Shown here piece by piece: positions 1 through 29,294 of a stretch of 64,000 nt of DNA (position 1 is the stretch's first letter; the number at the start of each line of letters is the position of its first letter). The DNA lies in the NCBI GenBank assembly GCA_017506865.1, contig JAFCMP010000518.1, forward strand, positions 1 through 64,000, in the 5' to 3' direction. The position numbers and the translations under genes are program-made. The notes beneath the pieces are model-generated. The model did no database searches, was not told the DNA's origin, and saw only the letters and a list, made by a program, of their open reading frames with translations. Source of the DNA: Tribonema minus. Taxonomy: Eukaryota > Sar > Xanthophyceae > Tribonematales > Tribonemataceae.

Positions 1-3000
1 GCTTTGGCAAGAATCAAGTGTCAGACAACCCTGAGTTGGCCGCTGCCGCCGAAACAGAACTACCAGGATGGGACAACATTGTATTGGTTGCAGAGCAAGG
101 GGCTGCTTTGCAAAAACAAGCTACTGTCTATATAGCCAAGAAGTACCCCGTCACAGAAGCTACAGCGGATGGAATTGCAGTTGTGGTGACTTGGACCGGT
201 GACGCACCACCGGGGAACTATGTGCTCGAAGGGGCAATTGACCCACGGGGGCATTGGGCTGTGCGGCGGCGGCGAGTGTTGGTAGAGGAGGGTATGCACA
301 CCAGCACTATAAATCTCACTATTGTCAAGCGTACCGGTAAGCTGAAACCGGGCGTCAAGCTTGGGCACTTGCACTTGCTAGATGAGGATTTGTGGAAGCG
401 ACAATCACACAGATGTGAAGTGGAAACCACATGGAGCTTAATAGCACTGACTTCAGTACAGGAGAAAGACGAGAAACAGCAGTTGCTAGAAAAGCGCTTG
501 ACGGCGATCAAAGCGAGGATAGCACAGATAGAGCGCAATGATCGTCTAGCCACGGTTTGCTTCATGGTTGCTGCTGGTTATGTGACACCAGCTGAGGCGC
601 AAGCGGAGGCGCCAAATGTCATTTCGGGAACGGCAGCGGAGGCTCTGTTTGCTGAGAGCTGCGACGTAGGTTGGGGGTGTGGAGCACAGGTGAACCCTAC
701 TTCAACGTCAACTACTTCAACTAGCAGCATGGCAGACAAAGTCAATTCGGCTAAGTTAAACCCAGTCTCTGATTCACGAGTGCAAACATTGAGTGTAGAG
801 GAGCCCCACGCAGACAAGATAGTGCACAAGGCGCGGCCCCCCGCAGAACCGCCGCCGCCAAATGCTCCTTGCACTGCCGTCCCTGAAACTCACAATAAAC
901 CAAAAAAGGAAGCGAAGGTTGATGTAGAATCGCAACCTGGTGTTGGTGCTGACTCATCTGCAGCTCAAGAGTGTACGGACGATGAAGCAGTGCAACGGGC
1001 ACGGGAGCTGGAATGGCTTGCCGCGTTCCGTGTTGGGGAATTGGAACACTTGACGGAAGTTCAACGAATGCAGTTGACAGATTTGCTTCGCAAAATGGCA
1101 CGTAAGGGGATCTTCTCACATGATGGTAGGCCAGGAAAAGTGTCGTTGGTCCGCCACCATATTGATGTTGGAGATGCTAGGCCTGTGCGTTCCAGATTGC
1201 GAAAGTATAGTCTGAAAGAACTTGAAGTTTTATGGAAGGAAATTGACTTCTTGTTGAAGAAGGGCGTGATTGAGCCGTCAAATTCACCCTGGAACTCTCC
1301 TCTCATGATAATACCAAAGCCAGACGGTGGTATGAGAGTTGTGCAGGATTTGAGGGCGGTTAATCAAGCAGTGAAAGAGCGTGGTGGCGGTCAGGATGGG
1401 TTTCCGCTGCCGCGCATAGATGAGGTGCACTCAGTGTTGAATGGCTCTGAGTGGTTTAGCTCTATGGACGCGGTTGCTGGATTTTGGCATGTTGAATTGG
1501 ACAGAGAATCCAGACCAATAACGGCTTTTCAAACCAAATGGGGGTGCTATCAATGGAAGGTGGGACCTATGGGGCTTATGAACATGCCATCTACTTTTCA
1601 GCGTCTAATGCAGCTTGCTATGGGGCATGATGCGCTGTGGGTGTACGCCCTGGTGTACATTGACGATATTCTGGTTTTCAGCAAAACCTTCAAAGAGCAC
1701 ATGAAGCACTTGGAGATAGTGTTGAGCCGACTGCTCTCAGTAGGCATAAAGCTGAAACCATCCAAGTGTCATTTCGCCATGCGGGAGGTCAAATTTCTGG
1801 GTCATGTCGTAGATGCCCAGGGCAAGCGCGTTGATCCATCAAAAGTAGAGGCAATTGAGAAGATACCTTTGCCCTCTGACCTTCATGATGTACGTTCCTT
1901 TTTGTGTATGGCAGCGTACTACAGGCAGTATATCTCCCATTCTTCAACAATCACGGAGCCCCTGGTCAACCTTACTCGCAAAGGTGTACCGTTTGAGCTC
2001 TCGGATGATTGCATTGCTGCGTGGCAGGTGCTCAAGGAGGCCTTGAAGACATCCCCTGTTTTAGCACATCCCGATTTGAAAGGCATCCTCAATGGCTCAG
2101 TCAAGTTGGTTTTGCAGACTGATGCTTCTGACTATGGACTGGGAGCGGTGTTAACGCAGGTATGCCCCACCAACGGAGAGCACCCGATAGGATACTATAG
2201 TCGTACTTTGAAAAGTGCTGAACGCAATTATGGTACTTATGATAGGGAAGCGCTAGCAGCAATGGAAGGAGTTCACTACTTCAGACAGTTTTTGCACAAT
2301 GGTAACACGTTCATCCTACAAACTGACCACTCTGCATTGGCGCACTTGATGGGTGGCTCAGAACCGCGCACCAAGCGGCAGGAACGTTACATATCAGAAC
2401 TGCAAGAATACAATATGGACATTGTGCACAGGCCTGGTAGAGAGAATGGTAATGCTGACGCCCTCTCGCGTATCAGGGATGGCGCTTTCGTCACAGTGTC
2501 TGCAGGTGTGGCCTTTTCTAATGATGCAGCGACGACCTCGCAGCATGGGGGGATACAGCGGCCAGCACCTGTTCCGGGAAATTTTTCGTCTGTTGTTTTG
2601 CCTGCCGCTTGTGAATGTGACGATGCAGCTGGAGTGAAGATAGTGTCAATCAACATCACAGCAAGCAGGGTGGCTCAGCTGTTCCCAGAAGATGGCGACG
2701 AGAACATGGACCTTGAGGCTGAGTTGGAGGATGGCCATGAAGACATCAACAACAAGGATACAGGTGGCAAAGTAGATGGTAATAGGCAACGACATCGCGC
2801 CGTGTTTGAAGCGGGCGACTTGGTATCTTCGCTGAGCAAGGATGCGGTATTGGGGAAAGTAGCGAAGTACTTGACTACTAGACTAAGAGAAGGTGGTCCC
2901 CCACATGGCCTCTCACCTGGAGAAGTTGAGGATGCTCGCGCATTTGAGCGCGCTGGCTACTACATGCGCAATGGGAGAATGCATTTTGCTGCTGGTGGCA

Positions 3001-4022
3001 GGTCCCACAAGACAGGCACAGACTTGCTAGTGGTACCGAAGTCACTAAGAGAGCGCGTGTTTGAGGAATGTCATGATGGTGCGATTGGTGGAGGTCACAG
3101 TGGCTTTGCTCGCACATATGACAAAGTGAGGCGCAGGTATTTCTGGCCTGGCATGTATTCTGATGTTTTCAAGTGGGTGCTGACTTGCCTGGCATGCCAA
3201 AAGCGCAAGTCCAAGCGCGATATGCGTGTGCATGGATTTGGAGATGTAGATCTACAGCATGCGTTTCAATTGGTAGGCTTCGATATTGTGGGACCGCTGC
3301 CCAAGACTGCCAGGGGCAACACTTTCATTTTGGTCTTCACGGATTACCTGACTAGGTGGCCGGAGGCCTTTGCGATACCTGACAAATCAGCAGTCACTGT
3401 TGCGCGTGTCATAGTCAGTGAGATCATACCAAGGCACGGGTGCCCTCAAATGTTCCTCTGTGACAATGCTAAGGAGTTCAGGGGGTTGCTGATGAAAGAG
3501 CTAACTAGGTTAGTGGGCATTGAGCAGCGCTTCACATCCCCTTACCACCCTGCATGCAATGGTCTCACTGAGCGTACCAACGGCACGCTTGTCAACCTTC
3601 TGGCAATGATGGTAGAAGACAACCAGAAGAATTGGGACTCAGTCTTACCCATGGCTCTTTTCAACCACAGAGCTTGCACAAACACGACGTATGGCATGTC
3701 ACCGTTTCGCATGTTATATGGGCGTGAGCCCCTGCTGCCGTTCGAGGCAATGTTGGGAGATCTTCGTGCACCTGAGCTGTCGCGCAGGTGGAAGTCAGCA
3801 GCTGAGCACCTGCACGTAATTCATGAGCTCATCAAGGAAGGACACAGGCTGGTACAGGTGTCACTACAAGAGCAGGAGGAGAGGCTACGGGCGGCGGCAG
3901 CACAGGAGAAAGGGTTTGCTCGTCGCTTTGAACCTGGAGATCATGTTCTTGTACACTATCCGCCCGTTCGTAAGGGGCTGAGTAAGAAATTGAAAGCAGA
4001 ACGCTGGTTGGGTCCATTGTAG
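1..4022 (+). CDS. pol: Ty3/gypsy retrotransposon Pol polyprotein (RT-RNase H-integrase), 5' truncated by the window
   Basis: The reading frame is open to the left edge, so the GTG at 18 is not a true start; Gag and protease lie outside. Counting from 18, residues 60-115 resemble the beta-rich segment that follows protease in Ty3 elements. Reverse transcriptase follows, with the catalytic YIDD at about residue 547. RNase H begins near residue 700 (TDASDYGLGAVL) and ends at NADALSR. The integrase has an HHCC zinc knuckle (about 1018-1060) and a DDE core at about D1087, D1147 and E1184 (FDIVGP, CDNAKEF, NGLTERTNG). These enzymes would copy the element RNA into DNA and insert it. The frame stops with two adjacent TAGs at 4020-4025, just where Ty3 integrases continue; homology carries on in the next frame. 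Family assignment is firm; activity is doubtful. Confidence 0.95.
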   Translation, partial: FGKNQVSDNPELAAAAETELPGWDNIVLVAEQGAALQKQATVYIAKKYPVTEATADGIAVVVTWTGDAPPGNYVLEGAIDPRGHWAVRRRRVLVEEGMHTSTINLTIVKRTGKLKPGVKLGHLHLLDEDLWKRQSHRCEVETTWSLIALTSVQEKDEKQQLLEKRLTAIKARIAQIERNDRLATVCFMVAAGYVTPAEAQAEAPNVISGTAAEALFAESCDVGWGCGAQVNPTSTSTTSTSSMADKVNSAKLNPVSDSRVQTLSVEEPHADKIVHKARPPAEPPPPNAPCTAVPETHNKPKKEAKVDVESQPGVGADSSAAQECTDDEAVQRARELEWLAAFRVGELEHLTEVQRMQLTDLLRKMARKGIFSHDGRPGKVSLVRHHIDVGDARPVRSRLRKYSLKELEVLWKEIDFLLKKGVIEPSNSPWNSPLMIIPKPDGGMRVVQDLRAVNQAVKERGGGQDGFPLPRIDEVHSVLNGSEWFSSMDAVAGFWHVELDRESRPITAFQTKWGCYQWKVGPMGLMNMPSTFQRLMQLAMGHDALWVYALVYIDDILVFSKTFKEHMKHLEIVLSRLLSVGIKLKPSKCHFAMREVKFLGHVVDAQGKRVDPSKVEAIEKIPLPSDLHDVRSFLCMAAYYRQYISHSSTITEPLVNLTRKGVPFELSDDCIAAWQVLKEALKTSPVLAHPDLKGILNGSVKLVLQTDASDYGLGAVLTQVCPTNGEHPIGYYSRTLKSAERNYGTYDREALAAMEGVHYFRQFLHNGNTFILQTDHSALAHLMGGSEPRTKRQERYISELQEYNMDIVHRPGRENGNADALSRIRDGAFVTVSAGVAFSNDAATTSQHGGIQRPAPVPGNFSSVVLPAACECDDAAGVKIVSINITASRVAQLFPEDGDENMDLEAELEDGHEDINNKDTGGKVDGNRQRHRAVFEAGDLVSSLSKDAVLGKVAKYLTTRLREGGPPHGLSPGEVEDARAFERAGYYMRNGRMHFAAGGRSHKTGTDLLVVPKSLRERVFEECHDGAIGGGHSGFARTYDKVRRRYFWPGMYSDVFKWVLTCLACQKRKSKRDMRVHGFGDVDLQHAFQLVGFDIVGPLPKTARGNTFILVFTDYLTRWPEAFAIPDKSAVTVARVIVSEIIPRHGCPQMFLCDNAKEFRGLLMKELTRLVGIEQRFTSPYHPACNGLTERTNGTLVNLLAMMVEDNQKNWDSVLPMALFNHRACTNTTYGMSPFRMLYGREPLLPFEAMLGDLRAPELSRRWKSAAEHLHVIHELIKEGHRLVQVSLQEQEERLRAAAAQEKGFARRFEPGDHVLVHYPPVRKGLSKKLKAERWLGPL

Positions 4023-6338: not shown

Positions 6339-9300
6339 CTGGAGCAATGGAGCAGTTCCTCACTCCTGAAGAGTCAACACTGTGAGCTGGGACACCACCC
6401 AGTCACCACAGATGGAGTACAGGTATACGGTCAATGGGTACAGATACAGCTCTCAGCAGCTAAAGCCATCTCGCAGTACACAATTACCAATGTCAATTCG
6501 CTGACGCAGAGCCCGACAAGTTTCATCATGGCCGGATCAGACACCGGTGGCACCTATTGGGCGGCTATCGATGCAAGGAGCGGGCTCACTTGGAGCAGCA
6601 CCTTTTCCGCAATGACATTTACTGTTGCAAATCCGACTCGATGGACATACATGCGTCTGGTGTTTCCGACCACCAATGGCGGTGTAAGTGTGCAACTATC
6701 CGAAGTGGAGCTGGTAGAGAAGCTGACGGCGCCTGTGAACACTACACCGCCGACCGTTGTGACTGTGGACTATGCCAGATTGTCCACCGAATCGCAAACG
6801 TACTCGGCGTCCACTCTCCTATCGGGGTCTAACGCTTCATATGCCTTCAATGCAAACACCGCTAATACGTGGACGAGCAATAACACAGGCGCGGAAGCAT
6901 ACACTGGTGGTGTATACCCTCTAGGTGCCAGCTACACCATAATTGATGGTCAGCAGGTGTACGGTCAATGGGTACAGATCAAGTACTCCGCATCAAAGGC
7001 AATTTACCAGTACAGTATATACTGCAACTCACTGGCAAACAGCCCAGTAGACTTCATGGTGGTCGGGTCCGATGACGGTGCGTACTGGTCTACCATCGAC
7101 TCGCAAACAGGTGCAGTGTTTGCGTCCGCGCAATCCGCGTTGACATTCACTGTGGCACAACCTGTTCGCTGGGCATACTTTAGGATTGTGGTCACCAAGA
7201 CCAATGGCGGTCCATACGTACAGATTAGTGATGTGAACTTGATCGAAAAGCTGACAGCGCCCCCCAACACGTCAATACCCCCCAGGCTCGTGGTGACTAA
7301 TGCCCGAATCAACCCAGACTCAGCCTCAGTAGGCAGTTCCAGCAATACAGGTGCTTCTAATGCCTATGCTTTCAACTCTACGACGACTTCAATATGGACG
7401 AGTGGTACGTCATACAAGGGCGGAGAGTTTGTCTTCTCCAAGGTCTCTTCGATTGCCAGCTCTGCATATGTGTACGGAGAGTGGACACAAATCAAGTTCA
7501 CAGCTGCCACAGCTGTAAGTCAGTACATCATTTACAATGGCACTACAACTGGAAGTAGCCCAGCGGAGTTCTATGTGATCGCATCCCCTGATGCAATCTA
7601 CTGGGACACGATGGACCATAGAACAAACCTCGTGTGGTCAGGAACACGTGATTCAAAGAACTTTACCATTCCTTCTCGCAAGCGCTACCTCTATTGGCGC
7701 TGGGTCGTGCCTAAAGTAGATGGCACGGCCACCACAACTCAGATCAGTGAGGTCTTCTTGTATGAAGACCCCAGTGTGGGCGCCAACACAACAACGCCGC
7801 CGACTGCCACGCCGTCAACCGCCCGCGTGCTTGTGACTGCGATCATTACCAAAACATCATCCAGTGTGGACGCGACAAACACGGTGGCGCGTGCGTTTGA
7901 TGAGGGAGTGACAACATACTGGGCAACACCAACTTCACAGTACAACCCTTCCTACATCGGGACTGCCTTCTCCACTACCATAGACTCGGTTCCAGTTTAT
8001 GGTCAATGGCTGCAAGTGCAGTTTTCTGCTGCAAAGTCTTTGTACTTTTTATTAATTCTCGCTCAGGGCGCTTTGTACTCATACAAAATGTGGTACAACT
8101 CAGCAACCACTGCACCGGTTGACTTCAAGCTGGCTGGATCAAATGACGGTTCTACATGGACACTCATAAACTCCAGAGTCGGAGTGTCGTGGGCCGCTGC
8201 TGCAGTACAGGAGTTTCCAGTGTCCAATTACACTGCATTCACGTATGTGCGCCTGGTGGTCACAAAGATCAGTAGCACTGCTGCTTGTCAAATTCTTGAG
8301 CTTGGCTTTACGGAATGGCTTACTACACATCCACCACCAGGCGCCATAGCTCCAGCAGGGGGCACCCTAACTGTTGCATCAAAGTCTGACACTGGAGCAT
8401 CAGTGTCTGTTGCAATTGGCACTCTGGGCACAGGTGCTACCTATACATATGTTGTCAGCTACTCGACGATAAACTCCAGCGGCGAGTTCATGGTTGATTG
8501 CGGCACTGTTGTCGCACAGACAGCTACACAGACAGTAGCTATATCAGGGCTAACAAGCGGCACCACTTACTACCTCTGGGTACGTGCACTCACCGGTGGC
8601 TTGTACACGAATCTGATGACCACCGGCACACAGCTGACCACTACAACCACTGCACCGTCAGGCGGAAGCATTACTGTGAATTCTGTCACTAGCTCTACAG
8701 CTTCAGTGTCTGTTTCGATCGGAACGCTGGGCACAGGGGCTGTCTACACTTATGTCATCAGCTACTCCATGACCAACACTACCGGTTCATTCATGACCGA
8801 CTGTGGGCCCGTCATCGCGCAGACAGATGCGCAATCATTGACTGTTGCCGGCCTGAACAGCTCGACAACCTACTACCTGTGGATACGTGCACTCACCGGG
8901 GGGGTATACACCAATACCATGACTACCGGTGCCCAAGTGCGCACCACCGCTGTCCCCATCACTCCTTCCAATGGCCATCTCACAGTCAACTCTGTCAGCA
9001 GTTCAACAGCGTCTGTATCAGTGTCAATTGGTACCCTCGGAACAGGAGCCTCCTACACATATGTAGTCAGCTACTCTGATGCCAATTCTATCGAAGCCGA
9101 CATGACTGACTGCGGTTCACTTACCGCACAGACAACTACGCAGACTGTGGCGATTACAGGGCTGGCGAGTGACACCACCTACTTTATGTGGGTGCGTGCA
9201 GTCGCCAATGGGGTGTACACTAACATGATGGGCATTGGGACAGAGCTGGTGACCACAGCCGGCCCTGCACCACCGTCCAACGGGAGCATAACTGTGAACT

Positions 9301-9632
9301 CTGCTGCAAACACGACTGCGTCGGTGTCAGTAGCAATTGGAACGCTCGGGTCGGACGCAACATACACGTATGTCGTCAGCTACTCTACCACAAACTCTAC
9401 AGCAGCAGCTATGACTGACTGCGGGACGTTGTTGGAGCAGACGGCGGCACAGACAGTGGCTATATCGGGGCTCACCAGCGGAACGACATACTTTCTGTGG
9501 GTTCGCGCGCGTACTGGTGGTGTATACACTAATTTGATGACAGACGGCACTCAATTAGACACTACAAACACTAGCGGCGAAGCACCGTCCAACGGCAGCC
9601 TCAGTGTGATCTCTATTGCAAGTACAACCTTC
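6339..9632 (+). pseudogene. Discoidin (F5/8 C-like) and FN3 repeat surface protein, 5' part of a split gene
   Basis: The frame is open from 6339 (a TAA lies at 6336-6338) with no convincing start; ATG 6528 lies inside a repeat, so the 5' end is lost or degenerate. Four ~165-residue discoidin-like units follow, each with a YGQW(V/L)QI...FSAAK segment, a GS(D/N)DGxxW motif and a terminal Q(I/L)S(E/D)V. FN3-like units begin near 8340, each ~100 residues with IGTLGTGATYTYVVSYS, a DCG motif and SGTTYYLWVRA. The fifth breaks off after codons for AST-T at about 9632. The continuation is at 19133-20814. Such proteins bind glycans and often form surface or fibre adhesins; a viral or algal coat role is inference. 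There are no introns, and codon use is less GC-biased than in the inserted Fanzor. Confidence 0.8.
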
Positions 9633-11867
9633 TGCTGCTGCTGCTGCTGCCGCTGCTGCTGCGATATTGCTGCTGCTGCCCTGCTGTCCCTCCCTCCTCC
9701 TCTTTGCTGCACGCATGTCCGTCCGCAGCATGGCGCTGGCTATTGGCCGCCTCCAACTCCCGTATCTGCCTGCTGAAGCTGGCATGGCGCTGCCTCGCTT
9801 GCTCCAAGGTGTAGCAGGGCTGCCCCTGCTTGTTGAGAGGGATGAGAGCTTGGTGCGGCCGACCCTGATCCGCCGCCTCTATCACGATGCCGTAGTTCCT
9901 TCTGGAAGTGCGCCATGACCTCAGCTGCCTGCTCTCCTCCCTCGTGTACACCATGCTGCCGCCGTTGCTGGTTTGCCTGTCAATTTGACCGTGTCAATTT
10001 GACAGGTGTCAATTTGACAAATGAATTGTGGCCCCGCCTGTCAATTTGACTGCCTGTCAAATTCAGCTGCTGTTTCACAACACAACCACGAATGAAGCTG
10101 CGAGAGGAAGCCACCACGCAGAAGACTTGCTGCAGACGGTTTGCTGCCTCTGCTTCCGGTACCGCTGGCGTTCACACTGGTGCACAGGTGCGGAGCCTCT
10201 GTTTTTGAAGCTGACAGACTGGCAGCAGCAGCAACAGCAGGAGGAGAGGACCGGGCCGGTGGCTATAGGACGTATCTGGCGCACCGGTGATTACTCAATG
10301 GTAAGAAATAAGCAGCATTGAGCATGTGGCAGTGCCTACTTCGAAATGCGCAGTGCAGGCTGCAGCGGCAGTCCATTTTCGCATCCCTTTGATTTTTCCC
10401 ACAGCGCCAGAGCTGCATCTCCACGACCACGAGCTCTATTGCAGCGCCGCTTACGCAGGGAGCTTCGCCAAATGTTATTTGACTTATCCCGCATGACTGC
10501 TGCCCCCGCATCCTGCGAGGTAGACATTGACAGCAGCAGAAGTCCATTTTGGAAGCAGCGGTTTCAATTTGGAGGGCCATGGCACCGCAGCCAGAAGTCG
10601 ATGACCACGACCGTGATTGGAGCGCCGCTTGTGCAGGCAGCTTCGCCACACGCTACTTTAATCGTCCCGCATCACGGCTGTCCCCACAGCTTGCAAAACA
10701 CAGAATCACAGCCGCAGGAAATCCCATTCTTCGGCAGCTGGCCGTTGCTGCTGTTGACGATACACCACCCTTGTTCTTGCTCTGCCAACATGATGTCTGT
10801 AATGTGAGCTATGCGCCAAGCTGGTGATTTCGCTGAAAAAGACGCCGCTGGACTCGAGAACTGTGGCAGCTGTTGTGCACAGTATCGTTTCAGGGACTTC
10901 TCCGAACATCAACACAGCAGCAGCAGCAGCAGCTCTGCAGGCGGTGTTCTCAACATGCGGCTGGTGCAACATGCTTTTTCTTGTGCGCTTAGTGCAGCAA
11001 ATGAGTGGTTCGCTTTCCGTTAGGCCACTGCGCGTCCTCCAAATTGTAGCACAGCTCAAGTACCACAGCTACTGATGCTGCAGGCAATTTAGAAAGTGGC
11101 ATAGCTAGCTGCTGCTGTTGCTGTTGCGCGGGCTGCTGCTGTCAGTTGCACTGTTCTCTGGTATGCACTGGACACATACGCCCTTCATCGCCGTACTCGA
11201 GGCTCACACGCCTGTGCCACACAAACTGATGCAGCGCCTTCAGAGCTTCACCAGCATAACCACAGTGGTTCCTTGCTGTATTACCATCCGTGCCCAGGAT
11301 AGCTCTGCAAAGCAGCACAGCCTCACCAGCATGACCATGCTGAACTACCAGAAAATGTTGGGACATGAAGCCACGTTTCCACGAGGTTTATCACTCAACC
11401 ACCATCTGTAACTGTCACCCAAACTGCCATTTTGTCTCATTATGCACACAGACACTAGCAGCAGTCTTGCATTGTGGCAAAGCGCAATTCAAGCACTTCT
11501 TGCACTCCAAACATGGTGCAGAAGTGATGTTCACGACACATTCGTGTGTGCCTACCACAATGGTTTCCTGCTGTGTTAGTGTCCCTGCCCAGGCTAGCTC
11601 TGCATGGCAACACAGCCTCGCAAGCACAACCACGAGCAGCTCTCACGAAACCTTGCATGTGCTGCTGTTCCTTGGTGACTAGATTTTACTTGAAATTCTC
11701 GCACAGAGACGCAATGTCCTGCGACAACACACCCTGGAGATCCTAGTCACGTGCCATGGTTGCTCACTGGGCATCCTTGCTCACACTGGTGCTGCTGCCT
11801 CAGCTCCCGCCAATCATTATGGCCCCCGTGCTGACCTCCCTCTCCTCCCCGCCTGTCCTGCTGCTGG

Positions 11868-11898
<31 letters not shown>

Positions 11899-11925
11899 TT
11901 GCTTGTGCTGCCCCCTCCCACAGCC
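9633..11925. other. 5' flank of the Fanzor gene: CTG repeats, palindrome cluster, degenerate tandem duplications
   Basis: No exon is firmly supported. CTG/CAG runs lie at 9632-9680, 10920-10940 and 11865-11895. The palindrome TGTCAATTTGACA or near copies occur at 9978, 9992, 10007 and 10039. A ~200-bp segment at about 10370-10500 recurs diverged at about 10540-10690, and another at about 11230-11350 recurs at about 11500-11650. A frame on the minus strand (9954 to 9613) reads plausibly for ~60 residues before running into repeat-encoded Q/S; it is not identifiable. A pyrimidine tract ending CAG at 11923 could be a splice acceptor, so a further 5' exon of the Fanzor is possible. Confidence 0.5.
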
Positions 11926-14900
11926 ATGGCACAGTTCGAGGAGTCCTTCGTGGAGCGACTGTACTGGGAGTTCGGCGACTCCGTGCTGCTGCCCAACGGC
12001 GACTTCCCCAGCACAACCCGCAGCGTGTTGCGCACTGTGTTGCGCACGTACGAGAGGGAAGCAGGGCGACTGCCCCAGGGGGAGGACGTGTTTCTGAGGT
12101 ACAAGACCATCACCTGCTGCCTGCAGGACGTGCTCCACCGCCATGGCCAACTGCACATCCAGGAGCGCATGCAGGAGATCAGCGACTACATCGGCAAGGT
12201 GCGCCACCTGGCCTCCCTGCTGTCCAACTACATCTGCGACTGGCACCTGGCCCAGGCGCAGGCCGCGCACCAGCAGTTCCCGGTGGCGGACCGGGACTTC
12301 TTCCTGGCGTGCCTGGCGTGTTTCGTGCAGGGCGCAGGGTGGGGCCAGGTGAGCACCAGGCCACAATTTTGCAGCTTCTTTGTGATGCTTGAAAGTGGCC
12401 ATGCCGTACTGCCGCTGATTTGGGATGTGTAGTGGTGCCCTTCGGATGTTGTTATTGTTGTGCGAACGTGAGACGTGGGAGCCCTCAGCAGTCTGGTATG
12501 AGAGGGCTTGGAACGCCACGCCGCCTGCAGCACTTCCGTGTTGCACACAGCGACAATCATTATGAGTGGACACCTGATCTTGTCTACGTGGCACTCCCAT
12601 ATCATGTCATTGAGCACAGAGCCAAGAACAGGTGCTGGTGGTTTAAAGTAGAAGAGGTGTCCGCGCACCGTAGCAGAGATGCTAGCCGGATCAGAGGCCA
12701 GACACAGCCTACTTTACTTGACTGTCATGAGTGCTGACATTGCTATGGCCAGTCAAGCCAGATGGACCGCAACTGGAAGCTAGCACGTCTCAGATTTTGA
12801 ACCGCACAAAAGCAGGTTGCCATCACAGCCACACCAATTGACCACAATGCATCAGCCACACAGGCACCTCCTGCAGACATTCTCAAACAGGGAAGTGCAG
12901 CACAGCAACACAATCAAGCTAGGTGGCATCCACGACTGCCACATCCAACATCTAACCTGCTACATGCCAACAGCTACTCACTGTATACTATCAGCAACAG
13001 AGAGCAGCTGTGGATAATGGACAAGCTGCGGCCCTGCATAGGTTACAGGCAACGTGTCACTGCCACCATGGCAACACAGCATAATGGCTGCACAGTATAC
13101 ATGCCGATGCAGACACCGTGTGCGACCTAGCCAGCAGCGCTGGGCCTTCCGGCAAAGCCAGCATTCGCATGCACTCACCACCCCTTTCATACTCCAGCAT
13201 CACAACGTGAGCGCCACTTTCATCACCCTATGCACCGCAGACACCAACCACCTCTGTCCAGCACCGAGGTTGCAACCAACCTGTGAGAGAGAAGGCAACG
13301 GATTGCATGCAACACTCGCGTGTGAAGCCTAGACGTGGGTGGCGAAGATCACTTATTTACTTTCGGTATGGTGTTGTTGAAGTTAAACAGTTTTCGTACG
13401 CCATGCAGCTGTGGTCATTATCTTACAGTGGCTGTGGGGCTGGAGCGTCATGATGTCCTAAACGCATTGCATAAACTGTGACATCTAGCCTTGCAGCTGC
13501 ATGACATGTAAAATGTTTTTTTGCTGCCCTCACATCGCCATCCCACCCCCCCTCACCCCGGGCCAACAGGTGCCTGCCTCTGTGGCGGCCCGGTTCCAGG
13601 AGCTGTGCAACGCCAGCGGCCTGCAAGCTCTGCCCCCCCCGGTCCCTCGGCCTCGCCTCTTCGAGATGTTCAAGTACGTTGCGACACAGATGGCGACAGC
13701 CGCTGGGACGTACATCAACGAGCACGGCGATCAGCGCCGCCACGACATCACGAGGTGGGCCCTGTTGTGGGCCCTGCGAGGGCACATCATGGAGGGCTTC
13801 CCTGACACCGAGGTCGACATGAACGTGGGCCCATTCACAAGGTGGGCAGTGTGTCACAGGGTTGGCTGTGTGTTAGCTGGACAGAGGGGCCTAGCTCGAC
13901 AGATCAAGCCCTACCTGTGTGTGCATCGACCAACAGGGGAACACATACTCCATCACATTGAAAGTCTTGTTATGGTCTGTGCCTGCAGTGAAGCAGCAGA
14001 GAGCAGTGGCGAATGTTGCGTGCAAGGTGGCCAGTCTACACAAGTGCAGAGACCTTCACACTGGGTAGTCTGAGGGTTGCAGCTCTGGTCCCGCAGTGGT
14101 GTCAGCACTTGCCGTCATGTCACCAAATCTGCAGTCATCACACTGTGGTGTGCTTCTGGTACTTTAGCATATGTCTGCAATTGCACTTTGTTGGTCAATT
14201 CATTAGCTCGCATTCCAGCATAAGTTTCACCTCGACTTGAGGTGCAGCGGTGCTTAGTAGACACTTACTAATAGGCTCGCTCAGCAAACCCTACGTGGGG
14301 CGAGCTGAGTGATACCACACGTGGTGTATTGTTACATGTTGCATATATTTGCTACAATAATCGTACTTGATCATCATGGCACTACACTAGTTGTACGCAG
14401 AATCTACAACGTATAAGCAGGCTGAGCGTTGAGCATAGCAGATACGTGTAAGCGAGCTTGGTATTCAGCAGCAGCAGCTGCAGATGCCATTGGTGACCTG
14501 TCCACCTGCCACTCACAAGTGTGCTGACGGCGGACATGTGGCTGCGCTTGGCAATGCCCGCAGGTCTGTGCACGAGCTGGCCACCCTCGTCACCACATAT
14601 GACGGCCCTGATTTCGACTCAGCGCTGCAAGAGGCTCTGAACGACTGGGGCTTCAGGGGCACTGAGGTGGATGACGAGGGGGAGGTGCAGGAAGGCACGG
14701 ACTACAGCAACATAGCGGACATCTGCGAGGCAGTGAGGGACCTGCCGGACAACCACCACGCCACCTGGCGCCGGCACCTGGCCGTGCTGCAGGAGGACTA
14801 CGTGGTGCAGCAGAGGCTGGAGTACCAGGAGATTATGGGGGAGCTGTTCGAGGCGTATCCCGATGACCCCGCTGCGCGCGCTGCCGACCGGGATGCTCTG

Positions 14901-17900
14901 TGGGGCCTGCCCGCCCCGCCGAAGCTGACCGCGCCCCTGCCGCGTTTCGAGATGAAGGCAGCCTTCTGCCGCTATGACAAGACGTGAGTGCCATGACGTG
15001 CTTCTACTTTCTGGCCGTGGCTAGCACAGAAGTTCACAGACTAGTGGGGCACCTCAACCTGAGGGGGTAAGAGAGCAGGCATTTTCCTAATTGATGCTGG
15101 CAAATTCAGCACTGCAAGTAACTTGACAGGCTAGACACACCTTGACAAAGTGGCACTACACGCAGATGTGCAGGCTAGGCAAAGATTGGCATCATGGCAA
15201 CACCACCGCAGGGAGCTGGGAGGCCTTGCTCAGGTTTGGATGTAGAGCAATTGCATTGTGAGCAAAACAAGCCCGGGGCCCGCGAGATCATTTTGAGTTA
15301 TGTCCGTTCAAAAATGTCCTTTCAGGTATGCGCCAGGTATGTCTTGTGCGGGCGTGTCCTGTCACAAGGCCTGACGTGCCCCGCTGATGAACAGGTAGAA
15401 AAGTGGCCCTACCCCTGACGCCCCAATACTTACTGCTATGTGACTCCTTCGTACAATACTAATGAGATTCCTCTCTGTGACTGGTGCTTCCCGGGGGCAC
15501 CCATACCTCTTGCTGCTGCCAGTGACTGGGCCCTGCAGCAGCTGCCTGAGCCTCAGGGTCCCATGCACTCAGCCACTGGTTCCTGCAGATTGTCTCCTTC
15601 GTATGTCATAAACCACATGAGGCTACACTGCTAGGCTGACAAAGCTCGTGGACCAGGTGGCAGATAGCAATTTGAAAACCGAACGCTGATTATCAATGCA
15701 GCCTCCAGGCAATGTGTGCATGCTGACGAACTAGAGTACAGCCTCTGCTCACCGAGGGTGAACAAAGGCAAATGTTGAAGCAATGGCAAACCCACCACAG
15801 CTTGACTTTCATGTGACCAGCCTCTGAGACTGGTGCCGATGTAACTGCCAGAACTGCAACTTGCACCAGCAACTGTCTGCTCATGGAGACACGTGTCCGT
15901 CACCACACACAATCTGCCTCCATAGCCAGCGCAGCATCATTTGTCAACAAGTGTGGTTGTGCTTACTCTGAGGGGCATTTGGCGTCGCAATTGGGCTGAC
16001 TAGTATTGCACACACGTTGTCTGCTGCTGCTGGACCACAGGGCGATGGGCACGCTGGTCCCTGAGCTCCAGGCCGAGATGGGCCGGCTGGGCATCTGCTG
16101 GTACCGCGCGTTCATGAAGCCCGAGGCCAGGAAGGCGCACGTCACCACCATGCAGCGGCGCACCAACCACTACGCCCGCAGCGAGAAGGGTGTGATGAAG
16201 GCCATTCGCCACGCCCGCCAGGCCCCGCTGCTGGTGGCCTCCTCCTTCGAGACCGACGGCTACCAGCTCAAGCTCCTGCTCGTCACCAGCACCCTCTCCC
16301 GCCCGGGCCCGCACGGCCTCACCAAGCTGCCCCTGGCGGGCTACCAGGTGAGGGGTCTGTCTGCTGTAGGTGTTGGCGCATTCAGCAGTACAGTGTTGTA
16401 GCCGTGCTGTGGAAGCATCTGATGTTGATGTAGCTGGTGCTTCTTGTTTGCAAGCCCACCTGCAGTCCGTGTGATTCACACCTCAGTCAATCAGCTAGCT
16501 GCAGTAGGCCTAAACAGCAAACCTCTGCAAACGTGATGCGAAGTGCAGCGCCAGTACCAGCCATTGGCTGTCGGCTGGACCTGCATCTGTTGCCTGATTG
16601 ATTGCGATGCGAGGGTCTGCCTGTCAATGACTGCGTCCCACTGGGTCGTGTCGATGCTGTTTGCCCTCAGCCGTGTCATTTGTACGCCTCTGCCGCCATG
16701 TGCACACCAAGTCTTCACTGGTTTGACAGGCTCTGAGACGCTGCTGCGGCCGTTGCGCGTGGTGTGCAACAGGTGGGGTACGAGGACGTGACGCTGGAGG
16801 ACGTGATCGAGGGGGGGGACGGGGTCTTTCGCCTGGAGAAGGTGCACAGAGAGGTGGGGGCGGAGCCGGTGGCGTATGGCCCCGCCGACGCCCAGGAGCG
16901 GCTGGCGGCTATGGACGGCATTGCGGTGACTGGCGTCGACCCTGGGCAGGTGCTGGCCGTGAGCGGAGTCGGTGCTCGGGGCGAGCAGTGGAGACGTGAG
17001 AACGCAGCGGACTTGGTCAGTGACCCGACGGGTCAGGAGGTGGCGGCTTTCGAGGTGTCGGGCCACATATACCGTACGTGGGCGCTGTCCATCCGCAACG
17101 AGCAGGGAGAGACGGCCCGCCGCGTCGCCAACGACGAGTACAACGACGCTTGCACCGCGCTGGCGGACGAGCACACGCGCACTGGCGACATAGAGGTGAG
17201 CTGAGACAGGGAAACCGCCACAGTGCAGAGCGCAGCCTGTGCTGTGGCACTTGATGTCATCCGCTGTGCGTGTGCAGCAGCCTGTTCACACGTGGCTCGC
17301 TGGAACGAGCAGCCATGTAATTTTGTGACTGCAGCGTGGGGTTTTGGCAGGCCATGGTATCACTTGTTGAAGCAGCTGGTAGGAGCTGCTGGTGCTGCTG
17401 GCGCTGGTACGGGGTGGGGCCACACTAAGTCTTGTGTCTTGGAATGGCCGGAACAGAGTAATCACAGTAACTGTAGTCGTACACCTGGGTGACCTGGTAG
17501 CATGTGCCGCCGCTCAGGGGTAGGCTTGGGTACACCGTGACTGAGGACCTTAACAATACTGTGTGGCATAGTAGTACACATTGTTTAATGGGTAGGTCCG
17601 CTACCCCTTTGTCTGACCAGCCGGCTACAACTGCAAAATTATATTTAATGTATGCAATAGTGTAATAAACATCGCCATGTCCGAATCTGGCTATATCATC
17701 TGGACCCGAATTGGCCTGGAAGTTTTGCTGGTGCCCTCAAACGCCAGGTACCATATGACTGAATATCAAAGCAATCATCAGCCCTCCATCACCAATCAAC
17801 TTCATCACTCACATCACAATGTGTCATTGCAGCAGGGACACAGCGAAGGCGTCAAAGCCCGTTCCTCGCAAGCTCACATTTTGCTCATCACCACACGCGG

Positions 17901-18767
17901 CATTCCCAGCACAGATGGTGGACGATAGAAAGCATGTACAGAGACAGCACTGACCCTGCGTCTTGCACCTGTCCTGTTCAGGTTCTCACCGACCACTGCA
18001 CCGCATATGCTGAGCATGGGGATGCCATGTACGAGGAGCTGCTGCACGCTGTGCGGAAGATTCAGCGGTTCAGTCACTTCCGCGCGCAGCAGAGGGCGGC
18101 GGCCAGGGTGGCGGAGGTCATCGCGCCGATGCGGCGGCAGCGCATGCCGCCCGGCTGGAAGCCCAGACGGCAGCGGCGTCAGAAGCACCGCAAGTGGCGC
18201 AGCAACCGCCGTGCAGGCCGACGCGTCGTCTTCTTCGGTGTCGCCGCGCGCACGCCCGCCCGTGGGCGCCCTTCCATTCCTACCAAGGCAGTGGTGTGGC
18301 AGCTGGCGTGCCGCGCACCTGTCGTCATGACGCCGGAGGCACACACGACCGTGTGCTGCCCGGGGTGCGGCGAGCGGACGCGCCCCGGCGGCGCGGAGCA
18401 CGGCCACAGGAACCGCGTGTGCGACTCCAATCTGCCGCACCGCATCTGCCCCATTCAGGAAGCCGTGCATGGGGTTGGGGTCAGGGGGCTGGTGGTCTTC
18501 AACCGCGACCGCAGCGGGGCCACCAACATCGGCGTGCGTGGCGTGTGCGCGGTGTCCGGCGTGGAGGACATCATTCCAGGGTACCCCTGGGAGGAGGGCG
18601 ACGGGGGCGATGGGGACGGCGGCGACGGAGGCGAGGAGGAGGAGGAGGACGATGGCGGCGGCGGTGGCGGCGGCGATGGTGGTGACGGTGGCGGTGGCGG
18701 CGGCGGCGCGCTGTTGCTTGTGCTGCCACCGCTGGCGCCAGTGGACAACATGGACGTGGACGAGTAG
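11926..18767 (+). CDS. Fanzor (eukaryotic TnpB-like RNA-guided nuclease), six exons, 876 residues
   Basis: Exons read 11926-12348, 13570-13841, 14564-14983, 16041-16347, 16773-17195 and 17982-18767. All five introns are GT-AG with GTGAG/GTGGG donors, phases 0, 2, 2, 0, 0, and the 2631 bases join in one frame. RuvC-I is GVDPG with D530. E734 in the TPEAHTT segment just before the zinc-binding CxxC fits the relocated catalytic glutamate described for Fanzors. RuvC-III is NRDRSGATNIG with D791. Cysteines and histidines between 741 and 775 form the ribbon. The C-terminus is an acidic glycine tail coded by a GGC/GAC repeat. Fanzors cut DNA using a guide RNA made from the element's 3' end. Exons are very GC-rich at third positions, unlike the interrupted gene, pointing to an algal nuclear origin. 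An upstream exon is possible. Confidence 0.88.
12349..13569 (+). other. Fanzor intron 1
   Basis: The donor GTGAGC follows codon GGC-CAG; the acceptor is a pyrimidine-rich tract ending CCAACAG before GTGCCTGCC. Phase 0. It has many in-frame stops and no gene of its own. Introns 2 to 5 lie at 13842-14563, 14984-16040, 16348-16772 and 17196-17981; all keep the frame across the junction. Their lengths (425 to 1221 bases) are large beside the other introns in the window (86 to 148). Confidence 0.85.
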
Positions 18768-18984
18768 TGGTTTGAGGGGAGAGGGTGTGGGTGATGGCGG
18801 CGGTGCACAGTTGCACGCACCTGCCGCCGGGTACAGCGTTGCTTGCGGATGTGCCACTGTCGTAGCATGACTTGTAGCAGCAGCTGGTGGAGGGGATGGG
18901 AGGCTGGGCTTAGGAGTAGTGGGCGTGCGGGCGATAGCGCAGTAGCTGGTGTAAGTAGTTAAACATGGCAATCGCCAAAGTTCA

Positions 18985-19130
18985 TGACCAGGGAGCTCCG
19001 GCTTTGTTGAACATCGGGGGGGTTCGCCCCCCTGCCCTGGGAAGGAGTCTAACCAACTCCGCAGTGTGGCTCTCCGGGTTTGAAAGCCCTTCGGGGTGAG
19101 TACCGCGACTCCTACTATAATGAACGATTG
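18985..19130 (+). ncRNA. Candidate Fanzor guide-RNA scaffold and right end of the element
   Basis: About 220 bases after the Fanzor stop lies a stretch with three compact hairpins: G6/C6 closed by a TTCG loop at 19016-19032, GGAGT/ACTCC at about 19044-19060, and CCC-TTCG-GGG at about 19088-19097. GAGTC and GACTCC elsewhere in the tract could pair at longer range. It ends directly where the interrupted FN3 gene resumes. In TnpB and Fanzor elements the guide RNA spans the 3' end of the element and its guide is the adjoining flank, so here the guide would be read from about 19121 onward. Position and structure are seen; the RNA is inferred. Confidence 0.5.
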
Positions 19131-19132
19131 GC

Positions 19133-20814
19133 ACTGATACACATATGTAGTCAGCTACTCGGCGATAAACTCTACTGGAGCGGTCATGACTGACTGCGGC
19201 ACAGTCGCAGCGCAGACGACTGCACAAACGGTCACTCTGTCAGGGCTGACCAGTGGCGTCACTTACTACCTCTGGGTTCGCGCACTCACTGCCGGGGTGT
19301 ACACTAACTTGATGAGCAGTGGCACACAGATGACTACCACCATAGCACCTTCTGGTGGTTCAATCCGCCTTCAGTCAACAAGTGTGAGAACAGCATCTGT
19401 AACAGTGTCGATTGCCACCCTAGGCACTGATGCCACGTATGCCTACTTTATCAGTTTCTCTCTCAGCAACTCAGCTGGTGCGACCATGACAGACTGTGGC
19501 GCAGCCGTAGCTCAGAGCGCACCGCAGACGATCACATTGACTGGCCTCAATCAAGGCACTACGCATTATCTGTGGCTTCGTGCCAGAAAGGTAGGGCCGG
19601 GCACTTACACTGTCATATCAGCAACAGGATTGGAGTGCACCACTGCAACACCAGCAATCATAGCAGGCGCAGTGACCAGTGCACAGGCCTATGGTGCTGA
19701 TGATGGCTATATCGGCGCCACATCCATGACTTTTGCAGTGCCGCCTGTTGTGTACACCTGGTCATCCTCTGCAGGGGCTACTACCATTGCAAATCAGGAT
19801 GGATCACCAAAAGTGGGCTTGAAGGCGGGTAGCTACACTGTCACGGCGGTAGATTCTATAGGCTCATCTGCATCTTACACGTACACTGTGACACAGCCTA
19901 TCAGAGTGACACTGTCAGCGACTCCCTGCAGTGCGTACGATGCCAATGATGGCAGCGCCACAGTGTCTTTCTTAGGTGGAGGTGTGCCGCCTTATACACT
20001 GCAGTGGTCAAGCAGCACAACACTGCCCTTGCAGAACAGCACGGCAACCTCCATCACAGCATTGGAAGCAGGTGAGTATGTCCTGACTGTGTCTGATGCT
20101 ACAGTCTATAGGGCAACTGCTACTGTGACCGTGACAGAGCCTCAACAGGCACTCAGTGTCACCAGCATCACACCAATCAGCATAGCCTTGTCATGGCCTG
20201 TACCACGTGCATCAACTGGTGGTCTGTACAGCGTCAGTGCTGCACTTGAGGACGGAGGCGGAGTCGTAGCTGATGGCTTGTTGACCACTGCAGGGTCATA
20301 CACACTGATCGGACTGACACCTTCTACATCATATATTGTGAAAGTGCATAGAGTACTGAAGCGGGCGCGCAACATAAGAAAGCCCCTGGCTCAGGCAAGC
20401 GTTTCAACACTTGCAGACAGCCCGACCAATTTCGACAAGGCGCAGTATGGAGCGACGGATGGTACATATGCAATGAAGGGGGTGAAACTGGCGAATGTGA
20501 CCACAGACGTCCTCTCAATTTTTGAGCCGAACGATGTGCTCAATATCAGCACGAGAGTGACGGCCGACGCCAAGGCTACAGTTGCCAAGAACAATGACTT
20601 GTTCTCTACGAGCAAGTTTGATGCCATAGTGCTGCCATTCTCCAAGACTGGTGGCGGCGACCAGCACCTCGACCTTCTCGAGACAACGACTGGGATTGCA
20701 GCAAGTGTGTCCTATGTAGAGTCAACAGATGCGATCAAGGTCGGTGACACCGCATATCAGCAAGGAACATCGTTCTATGTAGGCAAGTACAGGGTTTCAG
20801 TGTGTGAAATATAG
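19133..20814 (+). pseudogene. Discoidin/FN3/SprB-like surface protein, 3' part of the split gene
   Basis: Homology resumes in mid-FN3 unit (TYVVSYS) and the frame runs to TAG at 20812-20814. After the resumed unit (to about 19350) comes one more FN3-like unit (to about 19650). Next is a pair of SprB/PKD-like beta units (about 19660-20150) with YTWSSSAG...LKAGSYTVTAVDS and its sister PYTLQWSSS...LEAGEYVLTVSDA. Another FN3-like unit with SLSWP-type start follows, then a ~135-residue C-terminal region (20410-20814) with no recognised fold that may anchor the protein. The full protein before insertion would have exceeded 1,700 residues. An independent start in this half is unlikely. Confidence 0.75.
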
Positions 20815-20839
20815 GGACACCTAAGGTAAAATGGTGTAT

Positions 20840-22032
20840 TCACGGCTCAGGGCCGATGCAGCGTGCCAGGCGTGTCGAGAGAATGTGCAGCAAATACTGC
20901 CTGAAATAGCCAACGTTGCGCTGCGTGAAGAACTGCTTCTGATAGACGTGGCACCATGCATTCGCGCATGCAAATACGCCACAGTCCTTGTTGTTGGTCT
21001 GCTGACACTTTGCGTTTGCTAGGAACGGCTCCCGTGTACTCATGATTGTTCCCAAACCAGGAGTGGTGGGGTACAGCATCAACAGCAGCTCATGCATATC
21101 CTCCATCTGTGCTTGACGCTGTGCACCAGGTGGTCTGGAAGCAGAGCACAAGCTGTCGTACACGACTAGCTCTTGTTGCTTTCGGTCGACAATGACCACC
21201 ACCCAGTGAGACTCGTGGCAAATGGGAATAACGAGGAGGTCAGCACCCTCCAATTCCGCAGTTTGTTTCCTGACCCACCCCGCCACCATGTTGCCTCTGC
21301 GTACGGTGGGGATGAGGACTACCTTGCCGCTGCTCGGGGTGGCAATGAACACGTCGATGAATGCATCTATCGCAAAGTTGTTCAACCACTCTGTGCCGGC
21401 AAAGCGGTGGATCTCCCGGCAAGTTATGCTGTGCCCCCCACCCTCAAATATTGCAGTTCGCACATCACCGTCCAACAGGCGATGTTCGCTCCACAACCAC
21501 AACTGCCGCAGTGCCGACGCCTGGTCCTGGCTAAATTGCAAGTCAGCAAGCTGCTGAGGGAGCTTCTTGAAGCTCAGCACGGCTAACCTGTTGCGACATT
21601 TCTTCCTGCGCTGCATCCTCTTCCCCTCATCGCATGCACTCCCCCCCGCTCCTCCACTGCTGTCATCACTATCGATGTCCAGCACTGCACCCGCAGGGGC
21701 AGCCATGACCCGCTCTCCTGAGCTACCGCTGCTACTGCTACTGCCTGTCGCGGCAGCTGTCTCCCGCTTCGCTTTTGCCTTCCTCTTGCCAAACATTGAA
21801 GGTCCGGCATCATAGTCCTCGCTATCAGAGAGTGTAAATGGCTCTGTTGCAGTTCCGCTTTCGACGCACGTGGAGGTTTTCTGCAGCAGCAAGGCAGCAG
21901 GACGCAGTGGTGAGAAGCAGGAAGCCACATAATACAAGAATGTAAGTCAGCAGTATTTGTATGCAAGGTGCTCTTGCCCACCTGGTGCTGCTGCGGTTTC
22001 CCATCGTTCGCCGCGGATCCAACAGCAAGCAT
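20840..22032 (-). CDS. Ulp1/adenain-type (C48) cysteine protease, two exons
   Basis: Exon 1 is 22032-21982 and exon 2 is 21880-20840; a 101-base GT-AG intron in phase 0 joins them to give 363 residues. Without splicing the frame runs on from a Met inside the intron. The N-terminal third is low-complexity and basic, with an acidic SDSEDYD segment and a KRKAKAKR nuclear-signal-like cluster. The C-terminal protease has the family motifs in order: SHWVVVIVD (catalytic His), VYDSLC (Asp), and QQTNNKDCGVFAC (oxyanion Gln and catalytic Cys, Cys codon at 20983-20981). C48 enzymes process SUMO or ubiquitin-like proteins, or viral and transposon structural proteins; which applies here cannot be told. 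It diverges from the ARM gene across ~230 bases. Confidence 0.82.
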
Positions 22033-27267: not shown

Positions 27268-29294
27268 TTACTCATGGCCTCCATACTTTCCCTCCCATCG
27301 AAATCCTGCTTGATTCAACTTGTTGACTCGCTCATTGGGCAGTAAGTCTTTGCGCTTGCGCAGGTTAGCTTGCCACGCTCCAACCTCACATTGCTTGCCT
27401 TCCATTTCGACTGATGTTCGCTTTGACATGCCACCTCTATCACGTGCCATGCACCACGCTTTGAAGCTGGCATTCCACTCTGCGTCTAGCATGCTGCTCT
27501 GTGGGACGGTTTTTAGCATGGCGCTCCGCTGGGCGGACAGTGTGCCTGCTGCGTCCGCTTTGCGCTGGTGTTTGATCCACAGTCCCACAGCAAACTCCTC
27601 GCCCCCCATTGTGTATGTTGTCCTTTGCCCGACTGCACCTTCAGTGCATGCAAGACGCCATGCATTAAAATTGACATCCCATGGCTGGCGGGGGCGACAC
27701 ACTGTCTTGAATCCTGCTTCTTTTAGCGTGGCGACTCGTTCGTCACTGAGCATGCTGTTCTTGATAAGCGTGCGCTGATTGCTCTGCCATATCCCAACAG
27801 CGTACTCTTCACCGTCAACTGTGATCCGCGTCGTCCGGATGATGTCTCCTTGCTCACGCGCCAGTTTCCACATCGCAAACATCTTTTCCCACCTCCACTC
27901 CGAGTAGCCGACTATCCTCCTCCGGATGACGCTGATGGCTTTTTGCATGGCCGCCTTCTCCGCAGACCTGTCGACATTCTTAAGTGACGGTGCCATGAAG
28001 TGAATGGTCTGCTCCCAGCCAGGGTGATCCTGACATAAGTCGATCATGGCCTCCGGGGTGTTCCACACCATGACTGTGGCAACCTCTTTGCCAGGGTAGA
28101 GGCGTACGCTACGAAACGCTCTCTGCATGTAGAGGTTGTGATCTCCAACACTGTTGATAAAGACGCAATCTACAGCAGGAATGTCAATGCCGTCATCAAA
28201 TACGTGCACCGAGGAGATCACACGTACATGATTTCGGTCACCTTCACTCATCCACTTGATTGTGGCATCCCTCTCTGCTGCTGGAGTTGTTCCGGTAATG
28301 ATGCGTGCCTCCATGTGCATGCTCTGCTGGGCAAACTCCTCCTTCAGCAGTCGCACTATCTCCGTGGCGTCCGCGATGGTGGGCGAGTAGAGTAGGTGAC
28401 GGCGTGGACCATACCCGAGGCGCATCGTGGCAGTGACGATGAACTCTGCCCGTGTCTCTATACCAGCCGTGTCGACATCAACGTTGTGGGGAAGTATGAA
28501 CCTTTGTGGCACAATGATGCCGGCGTCTATAGCCTCCGTGATCGTCATGATGTATTGCCTGTCCTCATCGCTGCTCATCATGCTCGTAGGTATGCCACGC
28601 CATGTGCCTGACACCAGAAGTATGTCTTTCGTCAGCGATGTGAGCTCACCGAGCTGACTGTGGTTATAGTGGTGCGCCTCATCATATATGACCAGCAGCT
28701 TCTCTGCCCTTTCCTTCAGCGCCTCGGCCACCTTGGCTGCGGACTTGTACGTCGTGTGAATGAAGTGCATGCTGTCTGCTGCGCCATCCTCCTCAAACGC
28801 ACTCAGCACATCGCTGTCCGTGCTGCCATCCGTGTCAAACAGCATGGACGTGTATGAGCGTCCGTCACTGTCCAGCACCGCATCAAACCTACGCTTCGTT
28901 TGCGAGACCTGACACCTGCGTGGTGACGCTACTACCACCGTGCTAAACCTGCGTGCCACCTCGTGCAGGCACAGGAGAATGCAGGCTAGTGTCTTACCGG
29001 CGCCAGGCACGACACCAAGTACATAAGGACCCTCAGTGGCAAAAGCTTTTGCCATTGAGCACAGCGCGTCCTGTTGCCACTTCCTGAGGTTCTGGCTGTT
29101 GGCGATGTCATCCCCAGCTGAAGCCACTGGTCCTTTGGGCTCCCATTCTGCAGCTGCTCCAGCGATTTGAAGGCTGCCTCCTCTACGATCAGCCAGTCGG
29201 GCCTGATGCGAAGGTTGCCGGCACGTTCATTCTCCTCCACAACAATGTTCCTCTTGCCAAGCATGCTGTCAGTAGTTGGGGCTGCTGCAGACAC
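27268..29294 (-). CDS. Superfamily 2 DEAD/DEAH-like helicase with three helicase-associated (HA) repeats
   Basis: The main frame starts at ATG 29127 and gives 619 residues. Walker A is PGAGKT (41-46), motif II DEAH (149-152), motif III SGT (174-176), and the second RecA fold ends with QRAFRSVRLYPGK. Three HA modules fill the C-terminus from about residue 400, each with a conserved Trp, a (V/A)G(I/L/A)W turn and a final LxxxGF-like helix. This pairing is typical of DNA helicases of large DNA viruses. A start at 29294 in another frame gives ~55 residues (MSAAAPTTDSMLGKRN...) that lead naturally into the gene, with the frame lost between about 29130 and 29160, so one indel may have split off the N-terminus. 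It probably acts on viral or host DNA; the exact role is unknown. Confidence 0.85.

Follow-up and report, generated by a model that had tools for sequence, protein, structure and literature searches.

Putative spliced Fanzor element inserted in an F5/8C–FN3 gene of a giant virus endogenous to Tribonema minus

The window (the whole 64,000-nt stretch of Tribonema minus DNA that was analyzed) probably carried a nuclear Fanzor element, predicted to be spliced, that was inserted in an F5/8C–FN3 gene of an endogenous giant virus of this alga. The host gene was assigned to a giant virus because insert-free FN3 genes were found on contigs C90 and C179, which also bore NCLDV capsid genes. Why Fanzors persist in eukaryotes is an open question; here, a single genome contained the element, its right-end RNA, what is probably its guide, and two copies of the target that lacked the insert but were damaged, and empty-site cutting by a Fanzor is therefore directly testable. 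The element and its surroundings were composed as follows:

6528–9628, + strand: 5′ segment of the endogenous viral F5/8C + FN3 gene that the element interrupts (Pfam fn3 and F5_F8_type_C; copies on C90 and C179)
9629–19123, + strand: inserted Fanzor element (absent from the C90 and C179 gene copies)
9629–11925, + strand: 5′ non-coding part with a CTG-rich start (copied at 86% on C114 and in part on C90)
11926–12348, + strand: Fanzor exon 1 (frame, GT..AG borders, match to public protein)
13570–13841, + strand: Fanzor exon 2 (frame, GT..AG borders, match to public protein)
14564–14983, + strand: Fanzor exon 3 (frame, GT..AG borders, match to public protein)
16041–16347, + strand: Fanzor exon 4 (frame, GT..AG borders, match to public protein)
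16773–17195, + strand: Fanzor exon 5, holding RuvC-I motif DPG (frame, motif, match to public protein)
17982–18767, + strand: Fanzor exon 6, holding the alternative Glu, C4 zinc finger, and RuvC-III Asp (frame, motifs, match to public protein)
18975–19123, + strand: right-end RNA element, candidate omega-RNA scaffold (covariance model R1, alignments A6 and A7)
19124–19144, + strand: candidate guide and target, host sequence directly 3′ of the element (matching, from the first base on, the insert-free site on C179; guide length of about 21 nt assumed)
19124–20814, + strand: 3′ part of the interrupted FN3 gene (Pfam fn3; copies on C90 and C179)

The sequence comparison was applied to the window and the whole T. 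minus genome (158 Mb, 554 contigs). Window 6528–9628 matched C90:716376–719443 (98%) and C179:113735–116802 (90%), and window 19124–20840 was found at 96% (C90) and 95% (C179) identity directly after these copies of the 5′ part. The uninterrupted copy of this adhesin-like gene that the original prediction had proposed looking for was thus found twice; both insert-free copies ran through the FN3 unit, whose two halves belonged to one gene, as had been claimed. NCLDV capsid matches lay in open frames on C90, C179, C112, C21, and C40 (10 in all), and the earlier description of the gene as virus-like agreed with the presence of capsid genes on C90 and C179 alike. PMC13236599 reports xanthovirus traces in Xanthophyceae and phaeovirus-like recombinases in Tribonema.

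The insertion itself stood, while its borders were moved from 9633/19130 to 9629/19123 (refined edges: left 9628/9629 and right 19123/19124), the right edge being set by 12 aligned ends plus three uninterrupted sites and the left edge from the host side only. Nor was the insertion clean: host bases were missing at the left junction (see below), and no TIR or TSD was found when 8000–12000 was compared with the right end. No DDE transposase (PF01609) was found: comparison of transposases P0010 to P0012 with the whole window gave only a 39-aa match (E 0.79); the enzyme that moved the window element is not encoded within it. The 5′ non-coding part probably holds a promoter and a 5′ UTR intron, the latter proposed because CACAG precedes the start codon. 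Among subfamily-I copies (subfamilies I and II being a grouping made in this analysis), similarity ended close to the start codon, and parts of the 5′ region were common only to C114 and C90. The C507 and C90 upstream sequences had no match to the left flank of their respective inserted partners. C114:201050–203321 (L009) was an 86% copy of the 5′ non-coding part that ended at window 11741, and C114 contained no Fanzor match.

The six exons that the original prediction had joined in one frame to 876 residues gave a product identical letter for letter to the public T. minus gene model JKP88DRAFT_350433 (876 aa). The five introns measured 1221, 722, 1057, 425, and 786 nt, and all five had GT..AG borders. 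DNA matches from other intron-rich copies were confined to the six exon intervals (edges within about 30 nt), with introns unmatched; outside the exons, C114 and C90 matched the 5′ part, and C90 and C179 matched the 3′ end. The RuvC D/E/D set and zinc ribbon noted earlier were located at D530/E734/D791 and at C741, C744, C762, and C771. The Fanzor motif D-X(125,275)-[TS][TS]XX-[C4 zinc finger]-X(5,50)-RD, as given by Bao and Jurka 2013 (PMC3627910), was matched by D530, 206 residues, TT737–738, the C4 finger, 18 residues, and RD 790–791. PMC10711439 (NAR 2023) describes DPG in RuvC-I plus a Glu six residues before the first CxxC as a Fanzor fingerprint; the window protein had DPG at residues 530–532 and alternative Glu E734 six residues ahead of C741. 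Exon 6 dN/dS between the window copy and subfamily-I copies was 0.27–0.45. Identification of the window protein as a Fanzor, a probable RNA-guided DNA-cutting enzyme, is supported at the sequence level, as originally proposed, because it combined this published fingerprint with a conserved right-end RNA element and relatives in IS4-type transposons.

Profile and structure searches recovered this family poorly. The window protein had no convincing match in Pfam, NCBIfam, PHROGs, or PDB searches, and neither did the A2 profile against PDB. PF07282 (TnpB/Cas12f zinc-ribbon) gave sub-cut-off matches at the finger of several relatives (P0013 0.0054, L040/L041 0.015, L046 0.022, and L030 0.11) and none in the window protein, L031, L032, L036, P0003, P0004, or P0005. 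In the T. minus genome, PF07282 lay above the cut-off at 14 places, none of them at the window-family loci listed by the own-genome protein search, which marks the window family as a divergent one missed by this profile. The 14 matches were located on C144, C179, C112, C445, C90, C68, and C346, several in open frames of >600 codons, and represented further Fanzor/TnpB genes. AlphaFold models of P0001 with 7 relatives and of P0013 with 8, the intronless T. minus relatives being left out of both inputs, had mean pLDDT values of 34.8 and 38.7 and were unusable. The hits of protein searches (about 8,000 candidates scored in each) were nine proteins of T. minus plus P0013, a JGI metagenome protein. 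Viral contig scans, with a contig set that may omit records very near the genome of the window, gave no relatives, and phage records, from which such near records may be absent, gave none in a tblastn comparison with the FN3 gene part. The accessible portions of the literature on Fanzor, Tribonema, and giant viruses contained no paper on this family that was noticed.

The own-genome protein search gave 58 scored matches, among them intronless frames of 720–951 residues on C112, C179, C514, C21, C379, C90, C110, C279, and C401, some with stops; the single-frame relatives had 30–38% identity over most of the window protein. These intronless relatives formed elements that measured about 4 kb and encoded a PF01609 transposase (2.7e-12 or better in four of the five frames scanned, the fifth being a fragment), and 8-bp TSDs flanked four of the five pairs of ends read, with none in L050. 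PMC13236599 reports a Fanzor-bearing IS4 transposon, the EVE element, as confined to Ectocarpus proviruses, and IS4-type Fanzor transposons are also reported for ESvi-1B and ESv-2 of Ectocarpus; the intronless T. minus relatives resembled these in having a PF01609 transposase, a Fanzor, and 8-bp duplications, whereas the window element was rich in introns and neither a transposase nor a TIR or TSD was found for it.

The intronless and intron-rich relatives displayed variation at the catalytic Glu: (i) L030, L031, L032, L034, L038, and L039, all intronless and IS4-borne, had Ala or Cys at the alternative place and Glu at the canonical RuvC-II place, while the other intronless members of the 15-row tree described below and P0013 kept the alternative Glu, and (ii) the intron-rich subfamily-II members L042, L043, L044, L047, P0004, and P0006 had Gln instead of the catalytic alternative Glu, which was kept in L028, L048, P0003, and P0005, while P0007 had Thr there in a gene model that skipped the stretch. 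In L030, the canonical Glu preceded the finger by 40 residues, and the aligned place in the window protein, at an equal distance, was Gly; in TnpB, the catalytic Glu lies about 50 residues before the finger. Four of the six canonical-Glu relatives were included in a tree of 15 rows, whose long branches were flagged by the program, and formed one clade (support 100/100) inside the intronless group, with dN/dS of 0.115–0.235 in four pairs, more distant pairs being near saturation. The simplest reading of these sequences would be that the catalytic Glu moved within the intronless clade. PMC10711439 ascribes canonical-Glu Fanzors to misannotated bacterial TnpBs and treats the alternative Glu as a Fanzor fingerprint; here, both placements occurred within one Fanzor family of one alga and its proviruses. 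The Gln form of subfamily II, possibly inactive, has spread.

The right-end region 18930–19125 was found again at four other genomic places. The five-copy covariance model R1 matched the window, one of its five training copies, over its full length at 146.1 bits, and among the 47 sources searched it gave full-length matches at eight further distinct loci (E 1.1e-6 to 0.19), all on the gene strand downstream of subfamily-I copies. It was positive at 8 of 10 further loci with subfamily-I exon-6 copies, silent in the 47 sources at L013 and L028, which both held such copies, weakly and partially matched in L056, and silent at the subfamily-II loci searched and the remaining intronless loci. A structure-fitted alignment of 13 sequences had 90.2% of cells pairing versus 87.4 in shuffles and a covariation score of 0.120 versus 0.082 in shuffles (0/500 as high) and at most 0.073 in slides; pairs changed on both sides showed no excess over shuffles (171/500 as high), and an unconstrained alignment contained only 18 consensus pairs, one changed on both sides. 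The folding energy of the window RNA was ordinary (z −1.13; 26/200 shuffles as low), and Rfam had no match over 9500–19300. The right-end element is probably a conserved, structured RNA.

Conservation of the right end stopped at ...TATAATGA (...CTATAATGA) and was followed by locus-specific sequence, a layout that resembles omega-RNA plus guide. The genome contained at least 13 right ends; 12 of the 13 were listed, the C97 end being dropped because its divergence began earlier, and nine were exactly ATAATGA. Right ends on C179, C101, and C62 had no exon-6 match in the adjoining stretch examined and resembled the 'ghost loci' described by Saito et al. 2023 (PMC10432273). The Fanzor copy on C90 was internally deleted, and beside it (L010 left part, near C90:982000–982741) lay a repeat of 850 nt, about 40 copies of which were scored, mostly at 93–95% identity.

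Five right flanks were searched for uninterrupted sites. In three cases, the match began where the element ends: C179 carried the site of the window flank, C90 that of the C179 flank, and C507 that of the C224a flank. The C90 flank had no uninterrupted match, and the C541 flank matched only further in. The host bases preceding the target were TTGGA, CCGGG, and CATGA, with G at −2 in all three, too few sites for a motif; the last bases of the element equaled two, none, and four of these host bases, respectively, and the edge was therefore ambiguous by the same numbers of bases. For L011 (right end at 1083, minus strand) and L061, a lone right-end RNA was recognized within a helicase-like gene, adjoining the probable nucleotide-binding loop of that gene, and an uninterrupted copy of the gene was present on C90.

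The window element shared with published Fanzors (PMC3627910, PMC10432273, and PMC10711439) the motif, DPG, the alternative Glu, a candidate 3′ omega-RNA with flank guide, and ghost loci, but differed in its 2.3-kb 5′ region, its five introns, and the lack of a significant PF07282 or PDB-chain sequence match. A guide from the right-end flank, as proposed for the window element, would also parallel TnpB of IS200/IS605 and IS607, no TSD being found in the window. In the proposed mechanism, the 3′ part of the transcript would become an omega-RNA with its scaffold at 18975–19123, the guide would be copied from adjoining host sequence from 19124 onward, protein and RNA together would recognize the same site in copies without the insert and cut it there, and such cutting would favor keeping or copying the element.

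The two uninserted gene copies were damaged at the insertion site. Relative to C179, the C90 junction lacked 9 and 15 nt, the window right flank lacked 5 nt directly after guide position 15, and the window left junction lacked about 25 nt of the FN3 unit (by eye). By phase counting, which takes the upstream frame in C90 and C179 as intact and, for C179, places the shift within the unit by eye, the FN3 unit of both copies was shifted one step relative to the downstream ORF and to the in-frame window unit; the uninserted copies thus appear to be out of phase at the site that the guide matches, as would follow from a cut there or from the loss of an insert. Downstream, C90 showed no net length difference over 1704 nt and C179 differed by the above 5 nt alone; upstream, both differed by 33 nt.

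It is quite conceivable, though short of an even chance, that the Fanzor element is genuine and that the C90 and C179 damage is unrelated to it, having arisen by slippage or deletion in a proviral gene that is built of repeats and has lost its importance: FN3 units are repeats, only three gene copies could be compared, and C90 and the window had a common breakpoint, so that two or three events would suffice. However, apart from the junction gaps, there was a single 33-nt net difference over about 4.8 kb (balanced indels not being visible), and the gaps therefore cluster at the insertion site. A tentative and rather doubtful reading is that the scars record natural RNA-guided cleavage of this site in sister proviruses by the Fanzor with an own-site guide, after which end joining disabled the viral gene. 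For most strands, published Fanzors cut 14–21 nt into the target, with 9–14 for one strand; the window gap therefore fits this range and the C90 gap spans the place. If cleavage were the cause, the Fanzor element would act for the algal genome, by design or accident, as a sequence-specific weapon directed at a giant virus resident there.

Footprints are left by cut-and-paste elements, a class that includes the intronless IS4-type relatives in T. minus, but the scars are unlikely to be footprints of a lost inserted element instead of empty-site cutting, since no element bases were recognized by eye at the C90 or C179 site and the window element lacked TIR, TSD, and transposase. It is similarly improbable that the window Fanzor copy is a dead, degenerate passenger that looks conserved without function: several other copies had stops, subfamily-II copies often had Gln at the catalytic Glu, and the left end of the window element was not defined, but its six-exon frame was open, all catalytic residues were present, and exon 6 dN/dS was low (see above). 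That the FN3 halves, each with a long ORF, were separate genes with nothing inserted was refuted by the two sister copies, in which at most about 50 nt separate the halves.

Several further components were recognized around the insertion. A 34-nt stretch within the FN3 gene (window 8038–8071) was present at dozens of genomic places, and because both sister copies were 33 nt shorter upstream, it may be a tiny insertion in the window copy. The contig end C293:1–250 was identical to window 6528–6778 and was perhaps an allelic fragment. An LTR-type retroelement occupied window 3–4022, where one open frame encoded reverse transcriptase, RNase H, and integrase domains, while 20840–21937 and 27268–29127 (minus strand) encoded a Ulp1-type protease and a DEAD helicase with HA domain, respectively, as candidate proviral genes.
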